From Selenomonas sp. TAMA-11512 (GTDB taxonomy: Bacteria > Bacillota > Negativicutes > Selenomonadales > Selenomonadaceae), in assembly GCF_037076525.1 (NCBI RefSeq), contig NZ_AP029018.1, forward strand, positions 1,885,001 through 1,949,000: DNA of 64,000 nucleotides, given 5' to 3'. The position numbers and the translations under genes are program-made. Numbering within the stretch: the stretch's first letter is position 1; every line of letters begins with the position of its first letter. Below are positions 30,104 to 33,430 of this stretch, in pieces. Under the pieces are notes generated by a model, which worked only from the letters and a program-made list of their open reading frames with translations, had not been told where the DNA came from and did no database searches.

Positions 30104-31825
30104 TTACTTCTTTCGATCTTTCAAAAAAACGACCTTCGACGACTTCGTCTTCTGCCGTGCCGTCCGCTTCGCTTCCGCGGCGTGCTGCAGCTCAAGCGGC
30201 GTATTGCCGCGGTTGGCAATCGACCGCGTCGTCTCGTAGAGACGCGTCAGCATGTGTTCCAGCGTGCGCTTTTCCGCCTTCCCCATGGCGTCCGTATAGC
30301 CCTCCGCCTTCAGGGAATCAAGGACAAAGCTGACCGGCGCACCCGAGAGAAAATTCCAGCACGTGCGCTCCATGACATCATACACCTCATCCGGCTCGTA
30401 GCCGAAGGCTGCGAAGCACTTCTCCACATTGGCTGTCTCCTCTTCTCCCTGCAGACCTTCTCCTATGGAGAATTCCATGATTTCCTCCTTGGATGCCGGC
30501 ACATAAAAGGGCTTGCCCTCCTGCATTTCGATGATGATCTGTGCCTCTTCGCCGGCAATGCTGTCCGAGATGAACCGGTCATGATCGATTTCGCCCGTTG
30601 TATACTCGGTGGGGATTTCCTGGATATAGCGGATGAGCTCCCGCTTCGTAATACTGCCGTGGCCGCCCATCTCGTAGAGTTCGACAAGAAGAGACAGCGG
30701 CGTCACGCCGTAGAGGAAATCCGCCGCGGCGAGACAGGTGAGAAGCCAGCTGCGGCGCTGTCTCTCCTCCTGCATGGCCGGCGTGTCCAGCTCTTTCAGC
30801 GCCGCCGCCACATCCTGCGCCACCGCGGGCGCCCCCGTCGGCGTCGAGGCAATGTAGCAGGCTGTGAAGAGAATCGTAAAGTCGTCCTTATCCTCTCTGT
30901 ACTTAAAGCCGTTCGGGTTCTTGAGATAGCGGCGCAGCGTTTTGACCTCGTGATCCGAGAGAAGCAGATAGTACCGGCGAAGCACGCCCGGCGCCAGCAT
31001 CTCCCGGGTCAGGAGCTCCGCGAGCTTTATCCGCGGCATGCCGCGCTTGACATCCACTTCTTTGTTGTCCAGGACGGTCAGCAGCTCTTCCTTCGTAAAG
31101 CCGCTGAGGATATCGAGGAGCCTCGGCGGATTCGCCGTAGGGAGCTGATCCACGGCGTCCTTCAGAATCTGTCTGAGCAAAAGCTCCTCCTCGCGTACGG
31201 AAAACGTACGATGGATCTCCTCGATGACACTCTCCGGGAGAGATGTTTTCGGATTGATGTCAAAGGGTTCACGATACCGGGCCCCGACCCCGTAGTGCCC
31301 GTCCTCCATACGCACCCATATGGAAGGGAACCGCTCCCTGCCATACGCGCGATAGTTGAGCCTGCACCGCTCTTCCAGTACGCGGTTAATCTCGGCCGTA
31401 TCCATCCCTCCGGACGCTTTCGTCACCTTGACGGCGTATCGCTTTTCCGCCTTGTAGGATTTAACCTTGATTGTGTATTCTCTGCTCTTCTCCGGCGCCT
31501 CGCCCTCTTGATACCGGAAGTGCATCGTCCGTACATGGGCAAAAAAATCGCAGATGTATTCCATATCCATTCCGTACGGCGTCCCCTCATACAAAGGCGG
31601 CTCATCATCGTCCAAATCCTCATAATCATATATCACGAATTTCGGCCGTTTCGAATAATACAGCACCTCGCCGCATGTCTTGTATCCCAAGACCACATGA
31701 AGGACATACGCCAACTGCGCGAACGTCAAGCGATCGGGGACTTCGATCTCCCGATGCATGTCCTCTGCCCCGGCATTCCCCTTCACATCCAGCACGTAAT
31801 ATCCGATGACCTTTTTCTCTTTCAT
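30104..31825 (-). CDS. Large protein with N-terminal pRiA4b ORF-3-like domain
   Basis: A 573-residue soluble protein. Residues 1-140 resemble the plasmid pRiA4b ORF-3 / IS1096 passenger fold, with VPDRLTFAQLAYVLHVVLGY, a DDEPPLYEGTPYGMDMEY acidic loop and FAHVRTMHFRYQEGEAP. The remaining 430 residues are helical, with LSGFTKEELLTVLDNKEVDV that looks like a short SAP-like or Rho-N-like helix pair. The end is Lys-rich. Function unknown; there is no SEC-C zinc motif. I start at MKEKKVIGYYVLDVKG (31825). An AT-rich TATAAT (31901-31896) next to repeat copy B may be its -10. Confidence 0.75.
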   Translation of the reverse strand: MKEKKVIGYYVLDVKGNAGAEDMHREIEVPDRLTFAQLAYVLHVVLGYKTCGEVLYYSKRPKFVIYDYEDLDDDEPPLYEGTPYGMDMEYICDFFAHVRTMHFRYQEGEAPEKSREYTIKVKSYKAEKRYAVKVTKASGGMDTAEINRVLEERCRLNYRAYGRERFPSIWVRMEDGHYGVGARYREPFDINPKTSLPESVIEEIHRTFSVREEELLLRQILKDAVDQLPTANPPRLLDILSGFTKEELLTVLDNKEVDVKRGMPRIKLAELLTREMLAPGVLRRYYLLLSDHEVKTLRRYLKNPNGFKYREDKDDFTILFTACYIASTPTGAPAVAQDVAAALKELDTPAMQEERQRRSWLLTCLAAADFLYGVTPLSLLVELYEMGGHGSITKRELIRYIQEIPTEYTTGEIDHDRFISDSIAGEEAQIIIEMQEGKPFYVPASKEEIMEFSIGEGLQGEEETANVEKCFAAFGYEPDEVYDVMERTCWNFLSGAPVSFVLDSLKAEGYTDAMGKAEKRTLEHMLTRLYETTRSIANRGNTPLELQHAAEAKRTARQKTKSSKVVFLKDRKK

Positions 31826-31919
31826 ACATCCGTTCCTCTCACACACCGACGAAATCCAACTCACATTTCAGCCCGAAATTCACATTGATTTCTATATTAT
31901 ATACGATTTCCTTCTTTAA

Positions 31920-31970: not shown

Positions 31971-32143
31971 GCACTTCCCTGTCCGAAGTGGAAGAAAATA
32001 ACAATTTGTCTCTTGAAAAAAAAAATCAAATAAAGGATAATGGATAAGCAAGTAAATTGCAAGTGCAAATTTGAACAATTTCACTGTTTTCTCGAATGCA
32101 TAAGCCGATACTTTTTGTCAAAGAAAGGATTTTTTCGTATATC

Positions 32144-33430
32144 ATGAACGACAATCAGCACCAATGCAGCTTCTGCCGGCGTATCATCACCGTGCGCGAC
32201 CAATACGACATGCCCATCTACGATCCCAAGACCGGCTTCGCCATCTGCCGCAGCTGCGTCGAAGATATCTACCACTTTCTCGAAGACCACGAGGACGCCA
32301 AGGAGGTCGAGGTCAAACGAGACTTCGCCGACCGGCTCGACGAGATTCTCGCCAAAAACAAGCCGCACATCATCAAGCAGTATCTGGATGAATACATCAT
32401 CGACCAGGACCGCGCGAAGAAGATTCTTTCCGTTGCCGTCTACAACCACTACAAGCGGATGAAATACGGCTACGACCACACGGACGGCTCCGAGATCGAG
32501 AAATCCAACGTGATCATGCTCGGCCCTTCGGGCTGCGGCAAGACGGCGCTCCTCTCCCATCTCTCGCAGCTCATGGATGTCCCCTTCGCCGTCACCGACG
32601 CCTCTTCGCTGACCGAAGCGGGCTTCGTCGGAGCCGACGTCGAAGTCGCCGTCCGCAACCTGTACTATGCTGCGGATAAGAATATCGAAAAGGCCGAGCA
32701 CGGTATCATCTACCTCGACGAGTTTGACAAGATTGCCCGTAAATCCGGCGCCAACAACTCCATTACCGCCGACCCCGGGCATGAGGGCGTCCAGCAGGCG
32801 CTCCTCAAGATGCTGGAAGGCTCCGTCGTGGAGTTTACGGCACGCGGTCAGCGCAAGCATCCGGAGGCGCCGACGATCAAAGTCGATACGAAGAACATCC
32901 TCTTCATTGTCGGCGGAGCCTTTGTCGGCATCGAGGAGACCATTGCCAAACGGCTCAAGAAGGATGCTTCCGCCATCGGCTTCGGCGCTGCCGTCGAGAG
33001 CACGAAGAAGGGCGACGATCCGAAGCGGTTTGATGAACTGCTCGAGCAGGTGCGCCCGGAGGATCTCATGCAGTACGGCATCATTCCCGAGGTCATCGGC
33101 CGTCTCCCCATCATCTGCACGCTCGGCACACTCGACGAAGACGCGCTCCTGCGCATCCTGACCGAGCCGAAGAACGCGCCTGTCAAGCAGTACCAAAAGC
33201 TTCTCTCCATGGACAATGCGGAGCTCACCTTTGAAGAAGACGCTCTTCGCGCCGTTGCGCAGAAGGCCATTGAGCGCAAGACGGGCGCCCGCAGCCTCAA
33301 GGGGATCATTGAAGACACGATGCTCGACATCATGTTTGACATTCCGAAGTCCGGCGAAAAGCGGCGCATCATCATCACGAAGGAATGCATTGAGGACGGC
33401 ACCGCGCCAAGGGTCGAGCCCGTTTCATAA
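32144..33430 (+). CDS. ClpX-like AAA+ ATPase paralogue
   Basis: A 428-residue ClpX-type unfoldase. The N-terminal zinc finger has Cys 8, 11, 35 and 38. Walker A is GPSGCGKT (127-134), Walker B IIYLDEFDKIA. The pore-1 loop is GFVG where canonical ClpX has GYVG. The RKH loop (GQRKHP), the IGF loop that docks on ClpP (AIGFGA), the arginine-finger region EVIGRLP and sensor-2 TGARSL are all present. It stands alone, without clpP or tig beside it. The ATG at 32144 is preceded by AAGAAAGGA at long range (14 bases). An ATG at 32096 would add 16 unlike residues. Confidence 0.88.
   Translation: MNDNQHQCSFCRRIITVRDQYDMPIYDPKTGFAICRSCVEDIYHFLEDHEDAKEVEVKRDFADRLDEILAKNKPHIIKQYLDEYIIDQDRAKKILSVAVYNHYKRMKYGYDHTDGSEIEKSNVIMLGPSGCGKTALLSHLSQLMDVPFAVTDASSLTEAGFVGADVEVAVRNLYYAADKNIEKAEHGIIYLDEFDKIARKSGANNSITADPGHEGVQQALLKMLEGSVVEFTARGQRKHPEAPTIKVDTKNILFIVGGAFVGIEETIAKRLKKDASAIGFGAAVESTKKGDDPKRFDELLEQVRPEDLMQYGIIPEVIGRLPIICTLGTLDEDALLRILTEPKNAPVKQYQKLLSMDNAELTFEEDALRAVAQKAIERKTGARSLKGIIEDTMLDIMFDIPKSGEKRRIIITKECIEDGTAPRVEPVS

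Follow-up and report, generated by a model that had tools for sequence, protein, structure and literature searches.

Control of ClpXP target choice by the pore loops of the motor is known largely from mutants of Escherichia coli (PMC7652416, PMC10638403). There, the residues that read the ssrA tag are Y153, V154, T199, V202, R228 and H230, and in constrained fits the V202A substitution alone brings the KM for GFP-ssrA up to 140-240 uM, from 1.3 uM (PMC7652416). The pore-2 loop of E. coli ClpX also closes the channel and matters for ClpP binding, and deletion of N195-P196-S197 slows the degradation of GFP-ssrA and speeds that of poorly folded, degron-less proteins (PMC10638403). Y153F data occurred in none of the papers searched on ClpX. 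Multiple ClpX proteins are called rare in a study of Myxococcus xanthus, which has three with separate roles (PMC11423568), and jumbo phages are known to carry ClpP or ClpX (PMC7824862, PMC11242549). For Selenomonadaceae, a search of the open-licence literature by title and start of abstract found no second ClpX among the matches listed.

The gene described here, X2, lies in a 64,000-nucleotide stretch of the genome of Selenomonas sp. TAMA-11512 (contig NZ_AP029018.1, positions 1,885,001 to 1,949,000), the whole of which is called the window. An earlier note, made from the sequence of the window, had seen in it a solitary ClpX paralogue with an altered pore loop; it missed that X2 is family-wide and old, that its pore-2 loop is the telling change and its zinc finger of another make, and that two large phage contigs encode the nearest ClpX relatives found. 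The presence, age, constraint and sequence changes of X2, and its common ancestry with those two proteins, are directly supported by the results below. The reading we prefer, at a probability of about 0.6, is that X2 is a second active ClpX of phage-related ancestry, fixed in the ancestor of the Selenomonadaceae, that feeds ClpP differently chosen substrates.

A second ClpX gene and its motifs

The features of the gene, in window positions, are as follows.

32013-32018, plus strand: -35 hexamer TTGAAA of a promoter-like pair (34 of 43 orthologues)
32036-32041, plus strand: -10 hexamer GATAAT of the same promoter-like pair, 17 nt after the -35 hexamer
32144-33430, plus strand: X2, second ClpX, a single gene (translation of 428 residues; NCBIfam models; complete orthologues in 43 of the 45 genomes from the family)
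32165-32257, plus strand: core of the zinc-binding domain, CxxC-x23-CxxC (spacing 23 in 43/43 X2, 18 in 41/41 canonical ClpX)
32522-32545, plus strand: Walker A, GPSGCGKT (40/43 X2)
32621-32632, plus strand: pore-1 loop, GFVG (42/43 X2)
32705-32731, plus strand: Walker B, IIYLDEFDK (43/43 X2)
32759-32788, plus strand: pore-2 loop, SITADPGHEG, with a one-residue insertion before it (alignment of X2 and canonical ClpX)
32852-32860, plus strand: RKH motif (R228, K229 and H230 of E. coli, kept in 43/43 X2)
32975-32983, plus strand: predicted IGF loop for ClpP docking ([IML]GF in 43/43 X2)

The open frame runs for 428 residues without an inner stop; a further in-frame ATG lies upstream at 32096, 48 bases before 32144, and most X2 orthologues begin near 32144. 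Both NCBIfam equivalog models for ClpX are passed, NF003745 with 508.8 bits against a cut-off of 359 and TIGR00382 with 490.4 bits against 370.75, and X2 keeps Walker B, the sensors, the Arg finger box PE[IV][IV]GRLP and the sensor-2 GAR. An AlphaFold2 model of X2 from 39 sequences has a mean pLDDT of 78.7, low at both pore loops and in the IGF region, and the 50 Foldseek matches listed for it are all ClpX structures; what the model adds is only that the predicted fold is that of ClpX.

The genome, one contig of 2,593,422 bases, also has a normal clpX in a tig-clpP-clpX-lon cluster about 730 kb from X2, the tig and lon of which we take to be such from their sequences. The two ClpX proteins are 48-51% identical. 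The only clpP found in the genome lies inside that cluster, and the ORFs of the window place neither clpP nor tig beside X2. Thus the paralogue is solitary, apart from clpP and tig, with a clpP-clpX pair elsewhere, as had been proposed, and the count of two ClpX genes and one clpP rules out that it is the only ClpX of the genome. ClpB is the sole Clp_N protein found in the genome (L241:670-3318, one frame with a pair of Clp_N matches), so that, with a search by X2 itself included, no ClpP motor other than ClpX and X2 was found. As a general substitute for ClpC, X2 was rejected, because 36 of the 45 family genomes have four Clp_N matches, which probably stand for two proteins, and X2 is kept in every family genome that can be read at the site. 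The ssrA tag predicted for this genome is ANEDYAFAA.

Comparison of 43 X2 proteins with 41 canonical ClpX proteins of the class gave 194 columns that are at least 90% conserved in both sets, 49 of which are fixed differences. The axial loops (E. coli 150-156, 191-205 and 220-238, limits that we chose and one of several partitions) hold 15 fixed differences in 34 columns against 30 in 148 for the rest of the AAA+ part (Fisher p 0.007, uncorrected). Other partitions, likewise uncorrected, gave p values of 0.019 for the helix after pore-1, 0.11 for the small domain, 0.57 for the IGF region and 0.50 for the zinc-binding domain.

On the alignment, the pore-2 loop is the telling change of X2 and GFVG a lesser one. 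Pore-2 reads [ST]ITADPGHEG in all 43 X2 versus SITRDVSGEG in all 41 canonical proteins, and one extra residue precedes it (a stretch of 17 residues in the 42 X2 readable by pattern and of 16 in 41/41 canonical ClpX); in E. coli numbering the changes are P196N, R200A, V202P, S203G and G204H besides the extra residue. The GFVG loop on which the earlier note had laid weight is indeed present, at residues 160-163, but it is a smaller change than that in pore-2. Likewise GPSGCGKT is found at residues 127-134, but as a mark of X2 it is a minor point, GPTGCGKT occurring in 2 of 20 canonical ClpX proteins of other families; one X2 of the 43 reads GPTGCGKN, with an odd last residue. Four of the six residues that read ssrA in E. 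coli (V154, T199, R228 and H230) are kept in 43/43 X2, Y153 has become Phe in 42/43, and V202 and R200 have become Pro and Ala in 43/43. The rebuilt pore-2 loop, with V202P, R200A and the other changes, suggests that X2 reads ssrA-type ends poorly and selects other clients; such reading may be weakened rather than lost, since T199, V154 and RKH are kept.

The zinc-binding domain of ClpX is where adaptors are taken. All four zinc-finger Cys are kept in 43/43 X2, and to that extent the zinc finger that had been described is there, but not in the standard form: 23 rather than 18 residues separate the two pairs, and PF06689 (zf-C4_ClpX) at E 0.001 has no match in the three X2 tested nor at the X2 locus. 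From the last of these Cys to NHYKR there are 62-64 residues in X2 versus 52-55 in canonical ClpX.

The loop predicted to dock on ClpP was correctly recognised as IGF, at residues 278-280, and the region around it (E. coli 263-283) has zero fixed differences, with only 4 columns scorable. A remodelling chaperone working independently of ClpP would suit a gene that does not adjoin clpP, and pore-2, rebuilt in X2, also has its share in ClpP binding in E. coli (PMC10638403); yet the docking motif has been retained in every X2, the region just named shows no fixed difference in its 4 scorable columns, and the phage relatives do adjoin clpP, which leaves this explanation with very little probability.

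Occurrence, constraint and surroundings

The Selenomonadaceae are a family of bacteria of the gut and mouth. A protein search covered 200 genomes of the class, 45 of them Selenomonadaceae (this one included) and 155 from 34 other families. Full X2 was found in 43 of the 45 sampled Selenomonadaceae, namely this genome and 42 others at 69-84% identity, and in 0 of the 155 sampled genomes of the other families. The best E-value in the 155 was 3.7e-123 versus 4.6e-188 for the weakest X2, and the matches listed outside the family have identities of at most 54% and are normal ClpX; four of the 155 are without a full ClpX match (best E 6.6e-18 or weaker, or none), three being less than 90% complete and one 87%. 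Loss of X2 from the two remaining family genomes was considered and rejected: one (G155) has a run of N at the expected X2 region, and in the other (G188) the C-terminal half of X2 is readable (77%) and adjoins a run of N, so that no absence is confirmed. A gene fusion in G188, where this half lies in an open frame of 1903 residues, was also rejected, most of that frame being the run of N.

Codon scans extend this picture to further genomes. TEAGFVG[ADE][DE]V, sought in species genomes, gave at least 119 stretches. Of these, at least 114 belong to X2, with identities of 69% or more; every one of them bears a Negativicutes label, and they are spread over Selenomonas, Anaerovibrio, Centipeda, Mitsuokella, Pectinatus, Quinella, Megamonas, Schwartzia and other genera, with orthologues in Selenomonas ruminantium ATCC 12561, Mitsuokella jalaludinii DSM 13811 and Pectinatus species. 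Among the 119 stretches listed, the record labels are Selenomonadaceae for 90 and Veillonellaceae for 9, with 16 lacking a family. At least five of the stretches fall outside X2 (four with ClpX matches of 40-47%, the fifth with none), and GFVG was given up as a unique mark of X2. ClpX-like sequences with GFVG that are not X2 come from MAGs labelled Allomuricauda, Burkholderiales, Xanthobacteraceae and Lachnospiraceae (L152, L168, L206, L212). Exact matches to the X2 pore-2 codons occurred in 10 of 11 family genomes, and none of the other 387 genomes sampled from the phylum had one.

X2 is old, vertically inherited and about as constrained as normal ClpX. In 20 genomes the distances of the two proteins run parallel (Mantel r 0.93, with 0 of 5000 permutations as high), the mean distance being 0.182 among X2 and 0.163 among normal ClpX, and dN/dS is 0.006-0.117 in 12 pairs.

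Within 320 nt upstream of X2, a promoter-like pair, mostly TTGAAA-17-GATAAT, is present in 34 of 43 orthologues; in a control of 100 single-base shuffles the mean was 4.2 and the maximum 9 of 43. The 43 upstream regions hold 0 CIRCE sites, 0 full CtsR sites and one CtsR half-site. A promoter of this sigma-A-like type, with so little sign of CIRCE or CtsR, speaks against X2 as a spare ClpX, redundant or kept for stress, that shares the substrates of the normal one, as do the fixed changes at ssrA-reading residues; the M. xanthus study does report some functional compensation between extra ClpX copies (PMC11423568), but we regard this alternative as highly doubtful. The own promoter-like pair, in a single gene away from clpX, also bears on the idea that X2 subunits share a ring with normal ClpX and tune its substrate choice. 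Such mixing would be in keeping with the same domain order, an identity of about 48% and the kept Arg finger box and sensor-2 GAR, but given the separate gene we judge it improbable.

Twelve neighbours from the window were sought at 42 X2 loci (flanks of 0.2-5 kb), and only ychF was matched, at one locus. A DUF1385-like gene adjoins X2 at 18 loci, 8 of which also have prfA- and prmC-like genes, all three names being presumed by us from the sequences; several neighbour groups in the flanks are antisense frames. X2 stands alone and has moved, and no conserved neighbour or adaptor that would point to its substrate was found at the 42 loci. In the window, 30104-31864 on the minus strand encodes a 586-residue protein, transcribed away from X2, that no Pfam or NCBIfam model matches at E 0.001.

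Phage-contig relatives and the origin of X2

Two large IMG/VR contigs, IMGVR_UViG_3300023714_000002 and IMGVR_UViG_3300021255_004427, have an X2-like ClpX; one of them, of 206,782 bases, was hit when viral contigs were scanned for the pore-2 codons, and the other, of 224,101 bases, came from an alignment search. In both, ClpX has 463-464 residues, comes straight after a clpP and carries the motifs SADPG[HQ]EG, FLDEFDKIARKSG, PDAPT and GIIPEMLGRLPIMC. Each shares 24 of the 49 diagnostic residues with X2, and none of 45 other rows (E. coli counted twice) shares more than 10, the 49 columns having been picked from X2 versus canonical ClpX without the phages. Matches to X2 above 50% identity in phage or plasmid records were absent among the matches listed, at most 25 and 20 rows, all of them in bands under 60%.

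The viral label of both contigs rests on IMG/VR and on the genes found in the stretches read. These stretches hold genes for thymidylate synthase, single-strand binding protein and parts of topoisomerase II, and that of the 207-kb contig also endonucleases and an anti-repressor. The topoisomerase II gene of the 207-kb contig is interrupted by endonuclease genes, and the 224-kb contig has an ORF at the place matching this split gene (loci L247:11655-16249 and L246:8111-13828). As to the host of the contigs, a 3D-domain protein singled out no family, and between a low-complexity protein and one encoded in the window the similarity reached no better than E 0.002. Some other phage ClpX proteins (L283, L284, L285, L286, L288, L248) have DEFDK[LI]ARK and an insertion together with an RD[VI]TGEG pore-2. 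In Prevotella phage Lak-A1 (L256) the ClpX match is in two pieces, the C-terminal part coming about 310 residues late, which could be an intein, and a Ruminococcus albus 7 plasmid, typed conjugative, carries tig-clpP-clpX (L220:1031-4266).

Early trees, of cellular rows or of these with a few viral rows, left the place of X2 unsure, on a stem 1.8-2.5 changes per column in length. The first of them, cellular with a few viral rows, held 16 of 43 X2 and 9 of 21 own-family canonical ClpX proteins, and the second 10 X2 and 7 own-family canonical proteins without the outer rows L217, L225, L152, L168 and L220. Viral row L217, which grouped with X2 (95/79), was rejected as a relative: its pore-2 is of the canonical type, the grouping was taken as long-branch attraction, and the row was for that reason left out of later trees. 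Of the two phage trees, the larger has 9 X2 and 15 of 37 phage rows and the smaller 7 X2 and 6 phage rows; these trees and the diagnostic count omit L168 (a fragment), L217, L278 (short) and Lak-A1 (in pieces). X2 and the phage rows lie on long branches.

In both phage trees, with and without the longest phage rows, X2 and the two phage-contig proteins form one clade (100/99), and their common ancestry is well supported. Within the clade, X2 and the phage pair are sister groups, and the direction of transfer therefore rests on the wider group. That group otherwise consists of phage ClpX, with support of 96/89 in the larger tree and 97/91 in the smaller, and transfer from phage to cell would be the favoured direction. 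In the smaller tree the phage-rich group in turn joins two cellular class rows (94/89, 88/75).

The opposite history would make X2 a duplicated cellular ClpX, for instance the family's own, that changed fast and was later copied by large phages from a Selenomonadaceae host. The sister-group relation and the two cellular class rows beside the X2-phage group agree with it, and AU tests do not reject a cellular placement, with p 0.074 for X2 and the phages in one clade with rows of cellular Bacillota, Tsukamurella and Fusobacterium (named post hoc) and p 0.086 for X2 with all class rows in a tree without phages. The rows nearest to the clade, however, are phage ClpX in both phage trees, and clades with the family's own ClpX, all named after the tree was seen, fare worse: p 0.028 for X2 and the phages together, 0.021 for X2 alone in a tree without phages, and 7e-5 when the phages are present in the tree and X2 joins the family's own ClpX without them. 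We rate the host-to-phage history as rather unlikely, and simple duplication of the ClpX that the family already had as disfavoured on these trees. A bolder proposal, held tentatively and at less than even odds, is that the family's ancestor captured and kept a large-phage ClpX and that one ClpP is now fed by two degron codes, an ssrA-type code via normal ClpX and a phage-derived code via X2. The cellular rows beside the phage group and the p of 0.086 lower the odds of phage capture and raise those of its host-to-phage rival.

Client choice and comparison with known systems

On the preferred reading, that of a second active ClpX with clients of its own, X2 would have been fixed in the ancestor of the Selenomonadaceae and then passed down with the genome. 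It would form an AAA+ ring of its own, dock by the IGF loop on the one ClpP of the cell, unfold proteins and feed them into ClpP. Its choice of clients would be altered via the rebuilt pore-2 loop, the Phe in pore-1 and the geometry of the zinc-binding domain; normal ClpX would retain the ssrA degron, with X2 serving other clients. The rebuilt pore-2 and RKH regions, together with the kept ClpP loop, are in keeping with the earlier suggestion of a second unfoldase that has a special set of substrates, a set whose distinctness we infer from sequence. One protease chamber probably serves two target sets.

X2 is a natural rebuild of pore loops, conserved through a family and present in the same cell as normal ClpX and one ClpP, so that the clients of the two motors can be compared directly. 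Should the phage origin be true, a viral protease motor has been turned into a conserved cellular one. Curated models name both proteins ClpX, and in these genomes that name hides two different enzymes.

Among described systems, canonical ClpX (E. coli, PDB 6WRF and 8E91; NF003745) resembles X2 in its zinc-binding domain and AAA+ module, Walker A and B, sensors, RKH and IGF, and X2 departs from it in [ST]ITADPGHEG with the extra residue, in GFVG and in a zinc-finger spacing of 23 rather than 18; X2 and E. coli ClpX are 45.5% identical. The ClpX2 and ClpX3 genes of M. xanthus (PMC11423568) are, like X2, extra clpX genes apart from clpP, existing beside a tig-clpP-clpX operon; they can be deleted and have special roles. 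By the published description, identity to E. coli ClpX is 64.8% for ClpX2 and 43.5% for ClpX3, which is without the N-terminal domain (PMC11423568); X2 is at 45.5% and has a zinc finger of other spacing. Bacillus phage G gp258, which adjoins the ClpP-like gp257, and the ClpX of phage Lak-B2 are likewise phage-encoded, but have the canonical SITRDVSGEG pore-2, unlike X2. Closest are the two phage-contig proteins, which are 48-51% identical to the X2 of the window and have the ADPG[HQ]EG pore-2, DEFDKIARKSG, the same insertion and a zinc-finger spacing of 24 (23 in X2). They differ from X2 in a GYVG pore-1, in an insertion after NHYKR, in adjoining clpP and in a docking loop that reads NGF in both, versus [IML]GF in X2.
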